Shown in pieces: positions 3,055 through 20,234 of a DNA stretch of 64,000 bases. A program made the translations under genes and the position numbers. A model generated the notes under the pieces. It was not told the DNA's origin. It saw only the letters and a list, made by a program, of their open reading frames with translations, and searched no databases. Every line of letters begins with the position of its first letter. Position 1 is the stretch's first letter. Source of the DNA: Gammaproteobacteria bacterium (GTDB lineage Bacteria > Pseudomonadota > Gammaproteobacteria > Burkholderiales > Burkholderiaceae_C); assembly GCA_018828125.1 (NCBI GenBank), contig JAHJWB010000003.1, forward strand, positions 1 through 64,000, written 5' to 3'.

Positions 3055-4299
3055 TCAGGCCTTGATCTTGAAACCGTCGGCGTACTTGGCGGGGTCTTTG
3101 CCATCCCACACCACACCGTCGATCAGCTTGCTGGTGCGCATCACGTCCTTGGGCACGCTGATCTTCATGGCGCTTGCAACCGACTTGTACAGGTCCACCT
3201 GGTTGATCTCTTTGGCAACGGCCAGGTAGTCAGGGTGGCTCTTGATCAAACCCCAGCGCTTGTGCTGCGTCAGGAACCACATGCCATCCGACAGGTAGGG
3301 GAAGTTCACCGCGCCGTCGTTGAAGAACTTCATGTGGTTGGGGTCGTCCCAGGTCTTGCCCATGCCGTTCTGGTAGCGGCCCAGAATGCGCTGGTTGATA
3401 ACGTCCACGCTGGTGTTGATGTAGGACTTCTGGGCCACGGTCTCGGCCATCTTCATCTTGTTGGACAGGCTGGCGTCAATCCAGCGGCTGGCTTCCAGCA
3501 CGGCCATCATCACGGCGCGCGTGGTGTTGGGGTTCTTCTTGACGAACTCGGCGGACGTACCCAGCACCTTCTCGGGGTGGTCCTTCCAGATGTCCTGCGT
3601 GGTGTTGGCGGTCACTCCGATGCCATCCATGATGGCGCGGTGGTTCCAGGGCTCGCCCACGCAGAAGCCGTCCATGTTGCCCACACGCATGTTGGCCACC
3701 ATCTGCGGCGGGGGCACGGTGATCAGCTTGGCGCCCGACAGCGGGTTGATGCCCGCAGCCGCCAACCAGTAGTGCATCCACATCGCGTGGGTGCCGGTGG
3801 GGAAGGTGCCTGCAAACGTGTATTCGCGCTTTTCCTTGGCCATCAGAGCGGCCAGCGATGGGCCGTCCACCGCGCCCTTGTCGGCCAGCGCTTTAGACAA
3901 CGAGATCGCCTGACCGTTGTTGTTGATGGACATCAGCACCGCCATGTCCTTCTTGGGGCCGGCAGTGCCCAGGTGCACACCGTAGACCAAGCCATACAGC
4001 ACATGGGCAAAGTCCAGTTCGCCGTTGACGAGCTTGTCGCGCACACCTGCCCAGCTGGCTTCTTTGGTGGGGATGATGGTGACGCCGTACTTCTTGTCAA
4101 AGCCCAGCACCGAGGCCATCACCACGCTGGCGCAGTCGGTCAGCGGGATGAAGCCGATCTTGACTTCCTTCTTCTCGGGGGCGTCAGAGCCCTGGGCATG
4201 CACCAGGGCGCGCAGGGCAGGGCTGACGCCCACGGCGCCTACGGTCGCGGCCTGCAGCACGGTGCGGCGGTTGAGACTGGTTTTCAGCAGATCGGTCAT
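3055..4299 (-). CDS. nrtA: Nitrate ABC transporter, periplasmic binding protein
   Basis: This 414-residue binding protein belongs to the NrtA/CmpA family. It begins with a twin-arginine-like signal (NRRTVLQAATVGAVG, residues about 9-24) and a cleavage region ending in VHAQ. The mature part starts VKIGFIPLTDCASVVMA and contains FPTGTHAMWMHYWLAAAGI and FCVGEPWNHRAI, which are hallmark NrtA segments. The ATG at 4299 has GAGGAAA upstream. It is the first gene of nrtABD; its leader carries an ANTAR-type RNA element and a terminator, and a sigma-54 type promoter lies between nasT and nrtA. NasS, the soluble nitrate sensor, is a homologue, but the export signal and the operon with permease and ATPase identify the transport component. 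Confidence 0.9.
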   Translation of the reverse strand: MTDLLKTSLNRRTVLQAATVGAVGVSPALRALVHAQGSDAPEKKEVKIGFIPLTDCASVVMASVLGFDKKYGVTIIPTKEASWAGVRDKLVNGELDFAHVLYGLVYGVHLGTAGPKKDMAVLMSINNNGQAISLSKALADKGAVDGPSLAALMAKEKREYTFAGTFPTGTHAMWMHYWLAAAGINPLSGAKLITVPPPQMVANMRVGNMDGFCVGEPWNHRAIMDGIGVTANTTQDIWKDHPEKVLGTSAEFVKKNPNTTRAVMMAVLEASRWIDASLSNKMKMAETVAQKSYINTSVDVINQRILGRYQNGMGKTWDDPNHMKFFNDGAVNFPYLSDGMWFLTQHKRWGLIKSHPDYLAVAKEINQVDLYKSVASAMKISVPKDVMRTSKLIDGVVWDGKDPAKYADGFKIKA

Positions 4300-4805: not shown

Positions 4806-5432
4806 CTACCCCAGCAGGTCCATCACATCCAGCATGCGTTGCGCCACGTCCACCAGCTTCAGGCCCTTGTCCATCGCGGTCTTGCGCAGCTTTTCGTACG
4901 CGGCCTGTTCCGTCAGGCCCTGGCGCTGCATCAGCATGCCCTTGGCGCGGTCAATGGTCTTGCGGTCCTTCAGTTCGGTCTTGGCATCGGCCAGCTCGGC
5001 GCGCAGGGCCTGTTCATGCTGAAACCTCGCCATCGCCACATCCAGAATGGGTCGGATGCGCTGGGGCGACAAGCCCGCCACGATGTAAGCAGACACTCCT
5101 GCGGCCACCGCATCCTTCACGTGGGAGGTGTCTTCATCATTGGTGAACATCACGATGGGGCGGCGTTCGTTGCGCGTGGCCATCACCACGTGTTCGAGCG
5201 CGTCACGGGCCTCGCTTTCGGCGTCCACGATGATCAGGTCTGGCTGCAACTGGGCCAGACGGTCGCTCAGAAAGACGTCGGCAGGCAGGGTGGCGATGAG
5301 GTTGAAGTTGTTTTCCAGCAGCCCGATGCGCAGCGCCCGCGACCGCTCTGCCTGCAGCAGGGCGTGTTCGTCGTCAGGGTCGGTGACTGCCAGATCCGGG
5401 GCCACCACCACGATGCGCAAAGCCTCATTCAT
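4806..5432 (-). CDS. nasT: NasT-type ANTAR response regulator
   Basis: This 208-residue protein has an N-terminal receiver domain (about 1-120; acidic site in PDLIIVDAES) and a C-terminal ANTAR domain (about 140-200: ELKDRKTIDRAKGMLMQRQGL, then EQAAYEKLRKTAMDKG). ANTAR domains bind paired hexaloop hairpins in leader RNAs and prevent termination. In nitrate systems NasT is held inactive by NasS until nitrate is present, but no NasS-like gene is visible here. The start at 5432 begins MNEALRIVVVAPD; an earlier in-frame start at 5486 adds 18 residues. It is transcribed toward nrtA and separated from it by the nrt promoter and leader. Its likely targets are the nrtA, nirB and nirC leaders in this window. 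Confidence 0.88.
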   Translation of the reverse strand: MNEALRIVVVAPDLAVTDPDDEHALLQAERSRALRIGLLENNFNLIATLPADVFLSDRLAQLQPDLIIVDAESEARDALEHVVMATRNERRPIVMFTNDEDTSHVKDAVAAGVSAYIVAGLSPQRIRPILDVAMARFQHEQALRAELADAKTELKDRKTIDRAKGMLMQRQGLTEQAAYEKLRKTAMDKGLKLVDVAQRMLDVMDLLG

Positions 5433-5444
5433 GCCCTGAGCATA

Positions 5445-5484
5445 AGCAATTTTTACGCCATAAATTGGTGCATCGAAGCGGTGC
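5445..5484 (-). promoter_or_regulatory. Candidate sigma-54 promoter and NtrC-like site of nasT
   Basis: On the minus strand TGGCGT-AAAAA-TTGCT (5460-5445) fits the -24/-12 pattern with correct GG-N10-GC spacing. GCACC-GCTTC-GATGC (5484-5470) just upstream matches the NtrC site with one base off. The predicted start (about 5434) falls two bases before the nasT ATG, which would make a leaderless message, so the call is tentative. Confidence 0.4.
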
Positions 5485-5641
5485 ATACCCTCGTTTCCAG
5501 GGCCTTCGGGGGGCTTGGCGGCTTTCAGGGCCTGAAACTTGCTAATAGTGAGATGGGCGGCAGGGCATACCCGGTAGGCCTTTAGGAACAGCGTCGCATA
5601 TACATCCGGTCACATTGACATCTTCCTATGGAGTTTTTTGC

Positions 5642-6802
5642 ATGAACCAACACATCGACCGGCGCCGCTTTTCGGCCAGCTTGGCTCTGACGGCCCTTGC
5701 CGCGTCCATTCTCATGGCGGGTTGCAGCAAAGTGCCCGACACCATCAAGATCGGTGTGGCGCAGCCCCTGAGTGGCCCGCTGGGTGCCTTGGGGCAAGAC
5801 TTGCTCAACGGTGTGAACCTGGCCGTGGCCGAGCTGAACAAGGGCGGCTACACCGTAGACGGCAAGCGGGTAACGCTGGAGGTCGTGTCGGTGGACGACA
5901 AGGCCGACGCCGCCACCGGCAAAACCGTGGCCCAGCAACTGGTGGACGCGGGTGTGGTGGCGGTGGTCGGCCATCTCAACTCGGGTGTCAGCATTGAAAC
6001 GGCGCCCATCTACGCTGCCAAAGACATTGCGCAGATCGCCATCTCCACCAACCCCAAGTTCACGCAACTGGGCTTTTCGACCACCTTCCGCATGGTGGCC
6101 AACGACACCCTGCAGGCCCGCGCCATCGGCTCGTTTGCCGCCACGCAACTGGGCGCCACCCGCTACGCGGCACTCGACGACGGCACCCCCTATGGCAAGG
6201 GCCTGGCCGATGGCGCCGCCGAGCAGCTGAAGGCCGAGAAGAAAGAAGTGCTGGTGCGCAAGTCGTTTGACGACAAGACTGTGGCTTTTGACGAGCTCGC
6301 TGGCGAGTTGAAGGCTGCCAAGGTTGAAGTGATCGTCTCTACCCTCAACGACTTCCAGGCCCTGGCCTTGCTCGAAGCCTTGCGCAAAGTCGACCACACC
6401 AAGGTGAGCCTTTTGGGCGGCGACACCATCAAGACCACCGACATGACAAAGGGCATGGGCATGGTCGAAGGCATCTATGCCACGTCGCCCGTGCTGGAAG
6501 CCAAGGAGTTCACCACCGGCAAGCCCTTCCTCGAAAAATACATCGAGGCGTACAAGAAGCCGCCCGCATACGGTGGCCACTACAGTTACGACAGCATGTA
6601 TGTGCTGTCTGCTGCCATCCAGAAGGCCAAGTCGGCCGACCCCAAGGACATCACCAAGGCCATGCACAGCATCAACGGCTACGCACCGGTCATCGGCACC
6701 ATGACCTGGGACGACAAGGGTGAACAACGCTACGGCGCCGTGGGCGTGTACGAGTTGCGTGCCGGGGCGTGGGAGCTGCGCATGCGGTCGGACCGCTGGT
6801 AA
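5642..6802 (+). CDS. Branched-chain amino acid-type binding lipoprotein
   Basis: A 386-residue type I periplasmic binding protein of the LivJ/LivK family. It has a hydrophobic signal with lipobox (ILMAGC, Cys about 27), so the mature protein should be lipid-anchored. The fold starts with [23 protein letters not shown] and contains [19 protein letters not shown] and [13 protein letters not shown]. The ATG at 5642 has GGAG upstream and gives the intact signal peptide. No permease or ATPase is adjacent: the gene stands alone between nasT (divergent) and tsaD, with its own terminator, and so must share a transporter encoded elsewhere. The ligand is not identifiable from sequence. Confidence 0.87.
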
Positions 6803-6870
6803 CACCTGGGGCTTGCGAGACCTTCAGACAAGGCCCTCATACGGTTGCGTCCACGGGCGTTCATGTCTGC

Positions 6871-14468: not shown

Positions 14469-15452
14469 ATGGCCCACCCTTTGATGGAGGTATCCACCGA
14501 TACCGTGGCACCGCGCGACCGCCTGCACCTGTGGGGTGATGCGGTGTGGCGGCTGATTGGTGGCCTGGAGTCGGATGCCTTTGGCGACGAGGCCTTTGCG
14601 GGCCACATCGCTTCGGGCCAGGCGGGCTATGTCAACCTGTGCCAGCTCAGCGTCAGCCGCCACCGCGTTGTGCGCACCCCCAGCCTCATCCGCGGCAGCG
14701 ACCGGGCGTATATCAAGGTCGTGGCGCAACTGGAAGGGCGTGCCTGCTTCGAGCAGAACGGGCGCAAGGTATGGCTCTCGCCGGGCGAGTGGAGCGTGTA
14801 CGACACAACCCGCGCCTACGCTGTCAGCAACCCCGAAGCCGTGCGCCAGATGGTGTTGATGATTCCGAAGGAACAGTTGCCCGAGCGCAAGCTCAAGCTC
14901 GACGACCTGATGGTGCAGCGCTTTTCAGGCACCAGCGGTGTCTCACGCTTGGCCTGGGACACCATGCGGGCCGCGTTCTCCGAGCTGCCAACCATGTCCG
15001 ACGCCGCCGCCGACGGCGTGGCCGATGTGATCACGCACCTGGTGCAGCTTTCGCTGCTGGAGCGCAATGGGCAGCACAGCCTGTTGTCGCAACGCGAGGC
15101 CTTACGCGACCGCATCAGCCAATATGTCGACCGCCATCTGGGCGACCCGGACCTCACCATTGATCGCATGGCCCAGGCGCTCAACTGCAGCAAGCGGCAC
15201 CTTTACAACGCGGTGGCCGACGACGACGAAACGCTGGCCGCCATGATCCAGCGCCGCCGCCTGGAGGCCTGCCTGCGCGACTTGCGCCACCCTGCACAGA
15301 CCCAGCGATCCGTCACCGACATTGCGCTGTCCTGGGGTTTCAGCAACAGCGCCCATTTCAGTCGGGCCTTCCGTGCACATGTGGGGTGCAGCCCGAGTGA
15401 GTACCGTGTGCGGACCTGTGGCGAGGCCGCACTGGCGTTGCTGGCGCACTGA
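14469..15452 (+). CDS. AraC-family transcriptional regulator
   Basis: A 327-residue regulator with an N-terminal AraC-binding-like domain of the FeaR/NahR-like type (about 20-190) and a C-terminal double helix-turn-helix (about 220-318). Key segments are RISQYVDRHLGDPDLTIDRMAQALNCSKRHLY, SVTDIALSWGFSNSAHFSRAF and VGCSPSEYR. ATG at 14469 is chosen because the codons upstream look non-coding. It is transcribed away from the liv-aldehyde dehydrogenase operon and probably activates it in response to the transported compound or its aldehyde product. FeaR-like proteins often respond to aromatic amines or aldehydes, a family-based guess. Confidence 0.87.
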   Translation: MAHPLMEVSTDTVAPRDRLHLWGDAVWRLIGGLESDAFGDEAFAGHIASGQAGYVNLCQLSVSRHRVVRTPSLIRGSDRAYIKVVAQLEGRACFEQNGRKVWLSPGEWSVYDTTRAYAVSNPEAVRQMVLMIPKEQLPERKLKLDDLMVQRFSGTSGVSRLAWDTMRAAFSELPTMSDAAADGVADVITHLVQLSLLERNGQHSLLSQREALRDRISQYVDRHLGDPDLTIDRMAQALNCSKRHLYNAVADDDETLAAMIQRRRLEACLRDLRHPAQTQRSVTDIALSWGFSNSAHFSRAFRAHVGCSPSEYRVRTCGEAALALLAH

Positions 15453-15587
15453 GCTGTTTGGAGTGTTCCGATGCCGCGGGCGAGCGCTCGCGCATAGATA
15501 CGCTGGAGCAGCACAGGATGGCACGCGGCACGGCACATGGCCATGTCGACGCGTGCACCTCGCAGGAGTTACACGGGTCCGGTTCGT

Positions 15588-15655
15588 GCCCCAACTTGGT
15601 GAGGTCCTGCACTGCGGCGATGCGCGCCTTCCGGGGCGCTACACCCACTGGGGTG
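15588..15655 (+). promoter_or_regulatory. NtrC-like sites upstream of nirB
   Basis: GCCCC-AACTT-GGTGA (15588-15602) resembles the NtrC site GCACC-N5-GGTGC and is about 138 bp before the predicted start. CACCC-ACTG-GGGTG (15642-15655) is a perfect inverted repeat about 85 bp before it. Both are weaker than the nrt sites. The rest of 15453-15707 holds no gene. Confidence 0.4.
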
Positions 15656-15706
15656 CAGCCTTGCGCCTTCTCGAAGCCACAGAGGCCTAAATGCTTGAAA
15701 AATGGC

Positions 15707-15722
15707 CGGCATGCTTATTGCT
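15707..15722 (+). promoter_or_regulatory. Sigma-54 promoter of nirBD
   Basis: CGGCAT-GCTTA-TTGCT has GG (15708-15709) and GC (15720-15721) separated by exactly 10 bp and keeps GGCA and TTGC of the consensus. The predicted start is about 15733, four bases before the first hexaloop hairpin, the same geometry as at nrtA and nirC. Confidence 0.7.
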
Positions 15723-15732
15723 GGACACAGGG

Positions 15733-15938
15733 TGTCCGTCGGTGAAGCTGCCAACGTACTGATAAAAACCCCTCCGCTAATGATGGCGGAACACCCGGGC
15801 GAGCCGCGACCCTTGAGGTCGGCCGCTTGGTAGTTCCAACCCACGCCCGTGGTTCCGCGGAGGGTGTGTAGTGCCAACTGGCACGGCATATCCTGCACCC
15901 CTGATGCGGTTCACCGGGTTCTTGCAGGATGAGCAAGC
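15733..15938 (+). ncRNA. nirB leader RNA with ANTAR-type hairpins and a hairpin over the ribosome binding site
   Basis: P1 (15737-15756) has one internal mismatch and hexaloop GAAGCT. P2 (15773-15790) has stem TCCGCT/GGCGGA and hexaloop AATGAT (A1, G4). Both arms of P2 are complementary to the same downstream stretch: GCGGAAC (15786-15792) to GTTCCGC (15852-15858), and CCCTCCGC (15770-15777) to GCGGAGGG (15857-15864). The structures are therefore mutually exclusive. The last hairpin pairs ATCCTGCA (15890-15897) with TGCAGGAT (15923-15930), covering the AGGA that serves nirB. No T-tailed terminator is visible. This suggests control of translation, or a terminator I cannot see. Confidence 0.6.
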
Positions 15939-18482
15939 ATGAAAATCGTTCTTATCGGCCACGGCATGGTCGGCCACAAGTTCCTCGAAAGCCTGGCCGA
16001 GACCGGTGTCACCGGTGTGGAAGTCACCGTGCTCTGCGAGGAGCCACGCCCCGCCTACGACCGGGTGCATTTGTCGGCCTTCTTCAGCGGCACCTCAGCT
16101 GACGAACTCTCCCTGGTCGAGCCCGGCTTCTTCGAGCGCACCGGCTTCACGTTGCGTCTGGCCGCACGGGCCGCCTCGGTGGATCGCCGCACCCGCACTG
16201 TGACCACTGCCGAGGGCGAAGTCCTGCCTTACGACAAGCTCGTGCTGGCCACCGGTTCCAACCCTTTCGTGCCCCAGGTGCCGGGGCGCGAGCGCGAGCA
16301 CTGCTTCGTCTACCGCACCATCGAGGACCTGGAGGCCATGCTGGCCTCGGGTGCCAAGTCCAAGACCGGCGTGGTCGTGGGCGGCGGCCTGCTGGGCCTG
16401 GAATGCGCCAAGGCGCTGCGCGACATGGGCCTGGAGACCCATGTGGTCGAATTCGCCCCGCGCCTCATGGCCGTGCAGGTGGACGAGGGCGGCGGCCGCG
16501 TGCTGCGCGCCAAGATCGAGGAGCTGGGCGTGCAGGTGCACACCGGCCGCAACACCCAGGAGATCACCGATGGCGCCCGCGCGCGCCACCGCATGGTGTT
16601 CGCCGACGGCACCTGGCTGGAGACCGACATGATCGTGTTCTCCGCCGGTATCCGCCCGCGCGATGACCTGGCGCGCCAGAGCCTGCTGGCGGTCGGTCCG
16701 CGCGGCGGCGTGGCCATCGACAGTGCATGCCGTACCAGCGACCACGACGTCTACGCCATCGGCGAATGCGCCTCGTGGAACGAGCAGACCTTCGGCCTGG
16801 TGGCGCCCGGCTACGACATGGCGCGTGTGGCCGCCCGCCATATCGCAGGCGACGCCGACGCCGCCTTCGTGGGCGCGGACATGAGCACCAAGCTCAAGCT
16901 CATGGGCGTGGACGTGGCCAGCATCGGCGACGCGCACGCGAAAACACCGCACAGCCGCACCTGCCAGTACGTGGACGAGCGCCGCCAGGTCTACAAGAAG
17001 ATCGTCATCAGCGAAGACGGCAAGCAACTGCTGGGCGCCGTGCTGATCGGCGACGCCACCGAATACGGCACGCTGCTGCAGATGGCCCTGAACGGCATCG
17101 CGCTGCCCGAAAACCCCGAGTTCCTGATCTTCCCGTCCAGCGACGGCAAGGCCAAACCCGGCCTGGGCGTGGATGCCCTGCCCGACACGGCGCAGATCTG
17201 CTCGTGCAACAACGTCACCAAGGCCGGCATCTGCGATGCCGTGGGCAATGGTGCCTGCACCATCGCCGAGATGAAGGCCTGCACCAAGGCCGGCGCCACC
17301 TGCGGCGGCTGCGTGCCCCTGGTCACCCAGGTCATGAAGGCCGAGATGGCACGCCGTGGCATGGCTGTGAACAACCACATATGCGAACACTTCGCGTATT
17401 CGCGCCAGGAGATCTACCACCTGGTGCGCGTGGGCCAGATCAAGAGCTTCGAGGACCTGCTGGCCAAACATGGCAAGGGCATGGGCTGCGACATCTGCAA
17501 GCCCGTGGCTGCCAGCGTGTTCGCCTCGTGCTGGAACGAGTTCGTGCTCAAGAAGGAGCTGGCCGGCCTGCAGGACAGCAACGACTACTACCTGGGCAAC
17601 ATCCAGAAGGACGGCACCTACTCGGTGGTGCCGCGAATGCCCGGCGGCGAGGTCACGCCCGACGGCCTGATCGCCGTGGGCCAAGTGGCCAAGAAGTACG
17701 GCCTGTACACCAAGGTCACCGGCGGTGCGCGGGTGGACATGTTCGGCGCGCGGCTGGAGCAATTGCCGCTGATCTGGGAAGAACTGATCACGGCCGGCTT
17801 CGAGTCCGGCCATGCCTACGGCAAGTCGCTGCGCACGGTCAAGAGCTGCGTGGGCTCGACCTGGTGCCGCTATGGCGTGGGCGACAGCGTGGGACTGGCC
17901 GTGGAGCTCGAAAACCGCTACAAAGGCCTGCGCGCGCCGCACAAGATCAAGTTCGGCGTCTCGGGCTGCACGCGCGAATGTGCCGAGGCGCAGGGCAAGG
18001 ACATCGGCATCATTGCCACCGAAAAGGGCTGGAACCTCTACATCTGCGGCAACGGCGGCATGAAGCCACGCCATGCCGAGCTGTTCGCATCCGACCTCAG
18101 CAAGGAAGACCTGGTGCGCATGATCGACCGGGTGCTGATGTTCTACGTGCGCACGGCCGACCGGCTGCAGCGCACCAGCACCTGGCGCGAGAACCTGGAG
18201 GGCGGCCTCGACTACCTCAAGGAGGTGTTGCAAAAGGACAGCCTGGGCCTGTGCGCCGAACTCGAAGCCCAGATGCAGCACGTGGTGGCCACCTACCAGT
18301 GCGAGTGGAAGACGGCGGTGACCGACCCCGAGACGCGCAAGCGCTTCCGCTCGTTCGTGAACAGCGACAAGGCCGACGAGAACGTGCTCTTCGTGGAAGA
18401 GCGGGGACAGATCCGCCCGGCGCGCGCTGAGGAGCGTGGAACCGGCCCTGCCAAGGTCATCCCCATCCGCCAGGCAGCTTGA
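15939..18482 (+). CDS. nirB: Assimilatory NAD(P)H nitrite reductase, large subunit
   Basis: This 847-residue cytoplasmic flavo-ironsulfur-sirohaem enzyme reduces nitrite to ammonium with NirD. The N-terminal FAD/NAD(P)H oxidoreductase part has GHGMVGHKFLE and VVVGGGLLGLECAKAL. A BFD-like [2Fe-2S] domain follows (about 415-460: CSCNNVTKAGICDAV...CGGCVP). The sirohaem/[4Fe-4S] ligands are Cys637 and Cys643 (CVGSTWC) and Cys677 and Cys681 (CTREC). Length is normal. nirD follows 17 bp downstream. Expression probably depends on sigma-54/NtrC plus the ANTAR leader. The partner nitrate reductase gene is not in the window. Confidence 0.97.
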   Translation: MKIVLIGHGMVGHKFLESLAETGVTGVEVTVLCEEPRPAYDRVHLSAFFSGTSADELSLVEPGFFERTGFTLRLAARAASVDRRTRTVTTAEGEVLPYDKLVLATGSNPFVPQVPGREREHCFVYRTIEDLEAMLASGAKSKTGVVVGGGLLGLECAKALRDMGLETHVVEFAPRLMAVQVDEGGGRVLRAKIEELGVQVHTGRNTQEITDGARARHRMVFADGTWLETDMIVFSAGIRPRDDLARQSLLAVGPRGGVAIDSACRTSDHDVYAIGECASWNEQTFGLVAPGYDMARVAARHIAGDADAAFVGADMSTKLKLMGVDVASIGDAHAKTPHSRTCQYVDERRQVYKKIVISEDGKQLLGAVLIGDATEYGTLLQMALNGIALPENPEFLIFPSSDGKAKPGLGVDALPDTAQICSCNNVTKAGICDAVGNGACTIAEMKACTKAGATCGGCVPLVTQVMKAEMARRGMAVNNHICEHFAYSRQEIYHLVRVGQIKSFEDLLAKHGKGMGCDICKPVAASVFASCWNEFVLKKELAGLQDSNDYYLGNIQKDGTYSVVPRMPGGEVTPDGLIAVGQVAKKYGLYTKVTGGARVDMFGARLEQLPLIWEELITAGFESGHAYGKSLRTVKSCVGSTWCRYGVGDSVGLAVELENRYKGLRAPHKIKFGVSGCTRECAEAQGKDIGIIATEKGWNLYICGNGGMKPRHAELFASDLSKEDLVRMIDRVLMFYVRTADRLQRTSTWRENLEGGLDYLKEVLQKDSLGLCAELEAQMQHVVATYQCEWKTAVTDPETRKRFRSFVNSDKADENVLFVEERGQIRPARAEERGTGPAKVIPIRQAA

Positions 18483-18499
18483 AGAAGGACGAGAACACC

Positions 18500-18859
18500 A
18501 TGAGCGCACTCCCAATGAACAGCAGCACCGACTCCCTTGCCTGGACTGACATCTGCGCGGTCGACGACATCCTACCCAGCACCGGCGTCTGCGCGCTGGT
18601 GGCCGATCGCCACGTGGCCGTGTTCCGCACCGGCAGCGACCAGTTCTTTGCCATCGACAACGTGGACCCGAAGTCGGGCGCCAGCGTGCTTTCGCGCGGG
18701 CTCATCGGCAACCTTGGCGAGCGCGTGGTGGTTGCCTCGCCGCTGTACAAGAACCATTTCGACCTGCGCACCGGCGAATGCCTGGAGGCGCCCGAGCATT
18801 CGGTGCAGGCGCACGGCGTGCGCGCCGAGGGCGGACGCATCAGCGTGGCAGTCGCTTGA
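18500..18859 (+). CDS. nirD: Nitrite reductase small subunit
   Basis: A 119-residue Rieske-like-fold subunit required for NirB activity. It shows W-T-D-ICAVDDILPSTGVCALV, VAVFRTGSDQFFAIDN and the SPLYKNHFDLRTGECLE segment typical of NirD. Like other NirD proteins it lacks the Rieske Cys-His pairs. ATG at 18500 has GAAGGACG upstream; the same frame is open further up but overlaps the nirB end. It is co-transcribed with nirB. Confidence 0.95.
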   Translation: MSALPMNSSTDSLAWTDICAVDDILPSTGVCALVADRHVAVFRTGSDQFFAIDNVDPKSGASVLSRGLIGNLGERVVVASPLYKNHFDLRTGECLEAPEHSVQAHGVRAEGGRISVAVA

Positions 18860-18920: not shown

Positions 18921-20234
18921 ATGCCCGACCTGGCCGCCGCGCCCCTGACCGTTTCCAGCCTCGTGCTGCGCTCGCGCCAGCTCGAGATCGATGCGGTGCA
19001 CCACCTGGCCAGCCGGGCCGCGCTAGTGGACGTGGTCGGCCAGCTGATCGAGGGCCTGCAGCGCGAGCGCGGTGCATCGGGCGTCTACCTGGCCTCCAAG
19101 GCACAGCGGTTTGGCGACCTGCGCGGTCGCATCGTGCAGGAGGTGGTGCTGCTGGAAGCCAAGCTGCGCGCGGAGTTTGCCCAGCATGTCGAGCCCGCAC
19201 AGGGCGCCACAGCCAAGGCCTTGTCGCTGATGGCGTGGGCGCTGCTGGGCCTTGATGCGCTGCCCGCGCTGCGCAGCCAGATCGACAAGCAGGCGATGGC
19301 GGCGCACGACTCGATTGCTGCCTTCAGCCACCTGATCGCGGGGCTGATCGAATTGGTCTTCCACGTGGCGGATGCGGCCGCTCTGCCCAGCGTCTCGCGC
19401 CAGCTCGTGGCCCTGGTGCACCTGGTGCAGGCGCAGGAAGAGGCGGGGCAGGAGCGGGCCATGGGTGCCTTGCTCTTCGCCTCGGGCCAGGGCAGCGACG
19501 CCCACCAGCAGCGCGTGCTGCACCTGATCGATGCGCAGGAGCGCAGTCTGCGCGTGTTTTCCGAATTTGCCGACCCGGCCCTGCGCACGCGCTGGGAGCA
19601 GCAGCAACTGGCCCCGGGCATGGCCCAGCTGGAACGCCTGAGGCGCACGCTGTGCGTGGCCCGCCCCGGCGCCGCGCTGGACAGCAACCTGAGCGACGCC
19701 TGGTTCGATGTGTCCACCGAGCGCATCAACGCGCTGTGGCTGCTGCAGGTCGAGCTGGTGCAGCGCCTGCGCGAAGATTGCGCGGCCCGCATCCTCGAAG
19801 CCCAGCAGGATCTGCAGGATTCCAGGGGCCTGCTGCGCGGCCTGCGCGACAACCCGCCGCAGCGCACGCACGCAGTGGATCGGTTCTTCGACATCGCCAT
19901 CGCTCCAGTGGCCGTGCCCGACCAGGCTGCTGGCGCGCATGCCGGTGAATCGGCCTCGCTGCTGGAGCTCCTGCAGACCCAGTCGGCGCGCATGGCCAGC
20001 ATGGAGGCCGAGCTCGAGGCCGCCCGCCGCACGCTCAACGAGCGCAAGGTGATCGAGCGCGCCAAGGGCGTGCTCATGGCCCGCCTAGGCATGAACGAGG
20101 AGGTGGCCTTCCGCGTGCTGCAAAAGACCTCGATGGACCAGAACCGCCGCCTGCTCGACGTGGCCGAGGCCACGCTGTCCCTGCCGGACCTGGTGTTCGC
20201 ACACCCCGAGCGCAAGGGTAACAAACCCGCCTGA
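18921..20234 (+). CDS. nasR: Nitrate/nitrite-sensing ANTAR antiterminator (NasR type)
   Basis: A 437-residue protein with a nitrate/nitrite-sensing NIT domain (about 35-300, starting LVDVVGQLIEGLQRERGASGVYLASKA) and a C-terminal ANTAR domain (about 370-430: ERKVIERAKGVLMARLGMNEEVAFRVLQKTSMDQNRRLLDVAE). In Klebsiella, NasR of this architecture binds nitrate or nitrite and antiterminates the nas leader. A short coiled coil (AELEAARRTLNERK) links the domains. The ATG at 18921 has GGAG upstream. It lies 61 bp after nirD and before the nirC leader, which makes nirB and nirC leaders its likely targets. Overlap with the NasT-type protein at 4806-5432 is possible. Confidence 0.9.
   Translation: MPDLAAAPLTVSSLVLRSRQLEIDAVHHLASRAALVDVVGQLIEGLQRERGASGVYLASKAQRFGDLRGRIVQEVVLLEAKLRAEFAQHVEPAQGATAKALSLMAWALLGLDALPALRSQIDKQAMAAHDSIAAFSHLIAGLIELVFHVADAAALPSVSRQLVALVHLVQAQEEAGQERAMGALLFASGQGSDAHQQRVLHLIDAQERSLRVFSEFADPALRTRWEQQQLAPGMAQLERLRRTLCVARPGAALDSNLSDAWFDVSTERINALWLLQVELVQRLREDCAARILEAQQDLQDSRGLLRGLRDNPPQRTHAVDRFFDIAIAPVAVPDQAAGAHAGESASLLELLQTQSARMASMEAELEAARRTLNERKVIERAKGVLMARLGMNEEVAFRVLQKTSMDQNRRLLDVAEATLSLPDLVFAHPERKGNKPA

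Follow-up and report, generated by a model that had tools for sequence, protein, structure and literature searches.

A nirB leader of Acidovorax-type bacteria as a candidate protein-controlled translational attenuator

How could an ANTAR protein control a nitrite reductase operon in whose leader ANTAR-type hairpins are followed by no T-tailed terminator? The question is raised by the DNA upstream of nirB in a stretch of 64,000 nucleotides, here called the window, which is the start of a contig from an Acidovorax-like host. Antitermination is what ANTAR proteins are best known for. The original prediction for this leader coupled its hairpins instead to how accessible the ribosome-binding site is, with no terminator involved. 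Comparison and folding favour this idea for one group of leaders, called Acidovorax-type below, but in other genera, where no Shine-Dalgarno (SD) switch is seen, it does not carry over. We give a probability of about 0.55 to the reading that leaders of the Acidovorax type are protein-controlled translational attenuators for nirBD-nasR; the whole case is built from folding theory and comparison.

The closest named nirB relatives, among the best 80 of 570 loci, belong to Acidovorax, and genus mates which share this nirB type have NirB identities of 87-97%. The leader is closed by the nirB ATG at 15939 (Table 1). The second gene is named nirD because of its Rieske_2 domain and its place after nirB, and since this frame is followed by one with NIT and ANTAR domains we take the three genes to be a putative operon nirB-nirD-nasR. 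The likely start of nasR is the Met at 18921; several close relatives align only from residue 129 on, which is this Met. The start of the open reading frame at 18537 was rejected as the nasR start, the first ~100 residues from there being nirD read out of frame. ANTAR matches in the genome (E up to 0.001) number two, NasR and a NasT-like protein. No nasS was recognised adjoining nasT (window 5582-6805): the minus strand frame beside it (5585-6802) has no NCBIfam match, and a plus strand frame (5615-6802) resembles a branched-chain amino-acid binding protein with 134 bits, under the family cut-off.

Table 1. Positions in the window of the leader elements, the nirB operon and the nasT-like gene. 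Pairings are predicted.
Feature	Position	Strand	Basis or remark
Sigma-54 (-24/-12) promoter element, CGGCATGCTTATTGCT	15707..15722	+	Weighted match to consensus; predicted start 15733
P1, first ANTAR-type hairpin, hexaloop GAAGCU (G1, G4)	15737..15756	+	Outer stem covaries
Segment 1, CCCUCCGC, 5' arm of P2 and flank	15770..15777	+	Would pair with segment 2 (OFF)
P2, second ANTAR-type hairpin, CCGCU-AAUGAU-GGCGG	15774..15789	+	Hexaloop AAUGAU, A1/G4
P3, stem GGAAC/GUUCC	15788..15837 (15788-15792 with 15833-15837)	+	Just 3' of P2
Segment 2, GCGGAGGGUGUGU	15857..15869	+	Would pair with segment 1 (OFF) or segment 3 (ON)
P4, hairpin GUGCC-AACU-GGCAC	15871..15884	+	Minimum-energy fold of 3' fragment; would be lengthened by 2:3 in ON form
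Segment 3, GCAUAUCCUGCA	15886..15897	+	15889-15897 would pair with SD (OFF), 15886-15894 with segment 2 (ON)
Segment 4, UGCAGGAUG, nirB SD AGGA at 15926-15929	15923..15931	+	Pairing, accessibility
nirB, nitrite reductase large subunit	15939..18482	+	PRK14989 1338.7 bits, TIGR02374 1096 bits
nirD-like, 119 aa, Rieske_2 domain	18500..18859	+	PF13806 130.3 bits
nasR, NIT and ANTAR protein, 437 aa	18921..20234	+	PF08376 142.2 bits, PF03861 76.2 bits
nasT-like, response-regulator/ANTAR protein	4806..5486	-	Sole other ANTAR match in genome

The loci used for comparison came from NirB searches (L029-L058) and from the best 80 of the 570 named loci. Removal of 15 duplicate leaders reduced these 110 loci to 95 distinct upstream regions. 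A P2-like motif is present in 80 of them and lies at -215 to -145 in 69. Segment 2, searched for as GCGG[AG]G, is found in 48 of the 69 leaders; among the 21 without it are L048 and L050 from the genus itself, which thus stand outside the accessibility test described below. Two of the 48 were dropped for having no AGGA. The remaining 46 fall into an Acidovorax-type set of 23, made up of 21 genus leaders and two on MAG contigs (L049, labelled Rhodoferax, and L067, labelled Aquabacterium), and a second set of 23, of which 15 are labelled Variovorax and the remainder come from Pseudorhodoferax, Xenophilus, Paracidovorax and unclassified MAGs. It should be noted that this division was fixed before the accessibility test, but after the earlier folds and pairings were known. 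Clustered at 90% identity, the Acidovorax-type leaders form 18 groups, at 80% 12, and at 70% 7. A separate alignment, A2, contains 52 of 66 thinned leaders, 14 having been dropped by eye; of these 14, nine have a G4 hexaloop hairpin with at least 6 pairs 5' of P2, and five have a weaker one or none.

The promoter agrees with what was first read: the sigma-54 element CGGCATGcttaTTGCT puts the predicted start 4 bases 5' of P1. When scored against the sigma-54 consensus TGGCACGN4TTGCW, 45 of the 46 leaders reach a score of at least 24, as against 0.18% of base shuffles. The distance from the element to P2 is 61-70 nt in 40 leaders and 79-80 nt in 6, the latter sitting at the edge of the search, which was restricted to 80-45 nt upstream of P2. 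For NtrC-like sites no claim is made; measured by mismatches to the NtrC site consensus the best one of the window has 3, which is equalled by 11% of shuffles, and sites with at most 2 mismatches occur in 23 of the 46 leaders.

The usual rule for the loops of ANTAR RNAs is A at position 1 and G at position 4, and the P2 loop AAUGAU is of this A1/G4 kind, as originally predicted. The comparison supports the two adjoining hairpins with six-base loops, P1 and P2, jointly. In the A2 alignment loop position 4 is G in both hairpins in 52/52 leaders, and A1 is found in P1 in 34 of 51 leaders and in P2 in 50 of 52, the search pattern having settled part of the P2 letters beforehand. The conservation of P2 is partly there by construction since the leaders were chosen via the P2 pattern; P1 was not selected by a pattern, yet 14 leaders had been excluded from the alignment by eye. 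The covariation score of P1/P2 in the 52 leaders is 0.192 compared to 0.136 after shuffling (0/500 as high), with the two-sided changes behind it all located in P1. The five pairs of P3 are all invariant in A1, the alignment of 23 leaders. Rfam gave no matches in the window at gathering and none for 15650-15970 at E up to 5, and with our own model of P1-P2, R1, the genome yielded no further site at E up to 1; the leader of nrtA, whose loops differ, was missed.

In the minimum-energy fold of the window leader P1 is present and P2 is replaced by a helix between segments 1 and 2, the 1:2 helix. The original prediction had both arms of P2 complementary to 15852-15864. This is retained for the 5' arm, which pairs with 15857-15864 over 8 bp; the helix is found in 48 of the 69 leaders that have P2 at -215 to -145, with compensatory changes at the outermost pair (CG 21, GC 13, AT 4, TG 3, TA 1, unpaired 6). 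The 3' arm (GCGGAAC) does match 15852-15858 in the window, but the match is a local one because only 11 of the 80 leaders with a P2-like motif have it. The way the search was set up partly guarantees the first six pairs of the 1:2 helix, but not the outer ones. When partners were permuted over six pairs, disregarding how the leaders are related, the leaders' own combinations scored 220 compared to a mean of 188.8 and a maximum of 210, none of 10000 permutations being as high. The changes fall in separate genera, and the helix is therefore real in our reading. It cannot form together with P2, so the two structures are mutually exclusive. Counted from the first base of P2, segment 2 begins 73-103 nt downstream in all but one of the 48 leaders, and 55 nt downstream in that one.

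The SD hairpin of the original prediction, ATCCTGCA paired with TGCAGGAT, is also present, with 9 bp including one U-G pair; the part of segment 3 that pairs with the SD is UAUCCUGCA (15889-15897). Of 500 shuffles that keep the dinucleotides of the 72 nt upstream, 1% yield a stem as good as that of this hairpin. A test for such contiguous stems covered 39 leaders. It gave p<=0.05 in 15 of the 23 Acidovorax-type leaders (in L039 via a different stem), the remaining 8 being not significant, and in L048 and L074 among the 16 others covered; interrupted stems are missed by this test, and ensemble accessibility was used afterwards. Absent from the first reading was a further pairing, that of segment 2 with segment 3 (15861-15869 with 15886-15894). 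Segment 3 (CAUCCU or alike) also pairs with the SD (AGGAUG), and the 2:3 pairing would therefore couple the competition at P2 to the SD. Folded from segment 2 on, 18 of the 23 Acidovorax-type leaders have 2:3 (AGGGUG/CAUCCU or alike) around P4 as the minimum-energy fold.

With segment 2 held, the computed mean SD accessibility in the 23 Acidovorax-type leaders is 0.078, compared to 0.363 when the intervening region is shuffled; the SD is under its shuffled mean in 23/23 and has p<=0.05 in 14. Freeing segment 2 raises the computed mean to 0.428, a gain of 0.35 compared to 0.08 for shuffled sequences. The gain exceeds the shuffled mean in 20 of the 23 leaders (p<=0.05 in 8) and is at most 0.1 in five of them (L033, L034, L040, L045 and L049); in L033 and L040 the SD remains masked. 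The same calculation for the other 23 leaders takes the SD accessibility from 0.376 to 0.355, and 0/23 are significant by either measure.

In folds of the whole leader the gain on enforcing P2 instead of the 1:2 helix is modest, from a mean of 0.13 to 0.29 in the Acidovorax-type set. SD access rises by more than 0.05 in 17/23 leaders and falls in 1. The rises number 14 both at 30 C, against one fall, and under other parameters, against two. In the window's own leader access goes from 0.00 to 0.20, and the Andronescu parameters make this 0.05 to 0.90. If the unconstrained fold is compared to the one with P2 enforced, access is up in 18 of 23 leaders (among them L061 with a gain of just 0.04), flat in 3 and down by 0.01 in 2, and the leaders of other genera are mixed.

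The model which we propose on this basis hypothesizes that the leader is made from the sigma-54 promoter and that, as long as no ANTAR protein is bound, segment 2 takes segment 1, the 5' arm of P2. Segment 3 would then base-pair to segment 4 and hide the ribosome-binding site of nirB (OFF). In response to nitrate or nitrite NasR would bind P1 and P2 and thereby lock segment 1 in P2; segment 2 would now pair with segment 3, extending P4, and the ribosome-binding site would be freed (ON). This is the logic of an attenuator in which 1:2 and 3:4 alternate with 2:3, the output being translation start, and pairing together with constrained folding indicates such exclusivity for the majority of the 23 leaders of the Acidovorax type. 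Attenuators of the trp type in amino-acid biosynthesis have four segments with 1:2/3:4 against 2:3. The proposal for nirB shares this four-segment logic; in the trp type it is the ribosome that captures segment 1 and segment 4 is a terminator arm, whereas here a protein-bound hairpin and the SD would have these roles. Averaged over the 23 leaders, folding puts the OFF form 2.3 kcal/mol below the form with P2, although in four of them (L037, L039, L049 and L061) P2 is the lower in energy to begin with. A gap of this size is one that a bound protein may plausibly close.

The alternative which survives best, though we consider it unlikely, is that the leader acts via transcription termination as in the nirBD operon of Pseudomonas, and that NasR or NasT prevents the termination. 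The 1:2 helix would then belong to a structure that terminates or pauses transcription with no T-tail, or Rho would stop transcription in the leader. High-GC leaders may terminate by Rho, which makes the latter version possible on general grounds, and 1:2 is conserved even in leaders where the SD is not switched. There is also a precedent in the Pseudomonas nirBD leader (NalA), with a sigma-54 promoter and antitermination by NasT according to the cited parts of PMC12830290. What speaks against termination is that no T-tailed terminator is conserved. The original statement that none follows P2 was borne out, a scan of 15400-16100 giving a single match, on the minus strand. In scans which admit loops only up to 8 and 10 bases, T-tailed terminators are not enriched in the leaders (12/46 compared to 13/46 reverse complements), and an intrinsic terminator with a stem excluding P2, as expected of an antitermination leader, was not found on the plus strand of the scanned stretch. 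Furthermore, the long distance from P2 to segment 2 with structured RNA in between is unlike a terminator stem, and termination leaves the SD masking in the Acidovorax-type set unexplained.

One could also hold that the SD hairpin and the 2:3 pairing have arisen by chance in a GC-rich, slowly changing sequence and that P1, P2 and the 1:2 helix alone matter. Segments 1-4 are near-invariant in the A1 alignment and 2:3 and 3:4 show little covariation of their own in the 23 leaders; because the four segments hardly vary, these two pairings rest on conservation and folding, not on covariation. The leaders are related sequences, 7 groups at 70% identity, and in 8 of 23 the contiguous SD stem is not significant. 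Against this, every one of the 23 leaders lies under its own shuffled mean when segment 2 is held, and segment 3 is kept in most leaders while the intervening P4 varies in length and sequence. A mere coincidence seems to us rather improbable. Rho-dependent polarity occurs in untranslated mRNA, and a mixed form, in which translation is switched and such polarity in untranslated nirB mRNA amplifies the effect to the transcript level, would fit the terminator scan and the accessibility data as well as a purely translational model; we rank it as somewhat less probable again. Finally, an upstream ORF, placed behind the GGAGG in segment 2 and running into the nirB start, might control nirB by being translated; we set this aside as very improbable. 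The window does have such a frame, of 23 codons and ending with TGA over the nirB ATG, but frame, start and length are not conserved. In the window this frame (15871-15942) has a GTG start and looks like a chance frame; L037 has none, in L058 it stops early, and other leaders have different frames and lengths.

Turning back to the translational attenuator, the original prediction left the partner as either NasT or NasR. The leader (R1, E below 1e-6) is present in 23 of 47 genomes of the genus, the window's own included, and an ANTAR match adjoins nirB in 22 of these 23, the exception being G035, where nirB lies at a contig end. Because of this linkage, and because nasR is located in the operon, NasR is, judged from gene order, the likely regulator of the nirB leader; NasT is less favoured. 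As nasR is within the same operon, linkage alone is no proof of NasR binding. Short frames of NasT size with an ANTAR match are found also in genomes without the leader, and a nasR match after nirBD is found also in Aquabacterium records whose leaders are without segment 2, but in only 3 of 17 Variovorax loci (L075, L113 and L114). A third leader type, with P1/P2 but no conserved segment 2, was seen in L073, L076-L078, L096, L121, L128 and L130-L133; these are mostly from Aquabacterium, also from Malikia and unclassified Burkholderiales, and 10 of the 11 have a nasR match after nirBD.

The competition between P2 and anti-P2 is kept, with covariation, in Variovorax and relatives and in one Uliginosibacterium leader (L085, L088, L101, L108, L117, L118, L137 and others). 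In those with an AGGA SD folding gives no link to the SD, and T-tailed terminators are not enriched. Since the other 23 leaders keep 1:2 without an SD switch, the helix must serve another role there, and the idea of an SD switch does not generalise; as far as seen, the translation-switch variant is restricted to Acidovorax-type leaders. We would give even odds to the more detailed version of the model, in which NasR captures one arm of the four-segment attenuator and unmasks the nirB ribosome-binding site, the operon encodes NasR itself and hence a positive feedback, and the arrangement arose in the Acidovorax lineage from an older P2/anti-P2 competition that has another output in related genera. 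If true, one ancestral half of a switch would have been wired to different outputs in sister genera. The Xenophilus leader L094 has no P4, and its segments 2 and 3 abut (GGGUGC-GCCU-GCACCC); with a CCUGCAC/GUGCAGG pairing over the SD it is a compact form of the layout, and its computed accessibility hardly shifts.

The photoreceptor NmPAL carries an ANTAR domain. The original remark that few ANTAR elements act on translation is fair, but they are not absent: translational ANTAR RNAs are already known, in the parts of the literature cited here, from mycobacterial repression (PMC8164766), as a bare prediction (PMC3369931) and as an engineered light switch (PMC11381354). According to the cited sections of PMC3369931, a terminator overlaps about 30% of the ANTAR RNAs predicted for organisms with ANTAR proteins, and for others translational control was suggested. 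In the actinobacterial ANTAR RNAs covered by the cited sections of PMC8164766, about 37% lie over a ribosome-binding site or AUG, and binding represses in mycobacteria. The leader described here would likewise act at translation; it differs in that the ribosome-binding site or AUG overlaps the ANTAR motif there, whereas here the SD is ~140 nt downstream and binding would activate by refolding the RNA. Neither a ribosome-binding site nor a start codon is located inside P1-P2, P2 ending at 15789 and the SD lying at 15926-15929. In the synthetic, light-driven NmPAL riboptoregulator binding of the aptamer by the photoreceptor breaks a cis-repressed form with blocked SD and induces translation (PMC11381354, cited part); the leader here is a natural one. 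The Klebsiella nasF leader shares with our proposal the nitrate-sensing NasR and a two-hairpin RNA, but as described in the cited part of PMC7496416 it has an intrinsic terminator, and here nasR is inside the operon under its proposed control. With the Pseudomonas nirBD leader (NalA) and NasT, reviewed in PMC12830290, the likeness extends to nirBD, the sigma-54 promoter, the ANTAR protein and a leader which refolds on binding; the cited part reports that system as transcription antitermination, whereas the nirB leader here has no T-tailed terminator and a computed masked SD. In the open-access literature covered, no title, abstract opening or passage describes a natural leader in which an ANTAR RNA makes a ribosome-binding site free. 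The model, if true, would have a natural ANTAR protein switch translation on rather than prevent early stops of transcription.

The nrtA leader is located on the minus strand at window 4540-4297. It has a sigma-54-like element, TGGCACGctgcTTGCG, two A1/G4 hexaloop hairpins (GACC-AAUGAA-GGUC and CCC-AAUGGC-GGG) and, as read from the fold, a long stem ending with UUUUUU at 4390-4328, with the probable nrtA ATG at 4299. Its terminator is absent from the output of the terminator scan, probably since loops were limited to 3-8 bases. By its sequence this leader has the classical antitermination layout, in the same genome as the nirB leader; the two, one with a terminator and one with none, would make a clean test pair within one genome.
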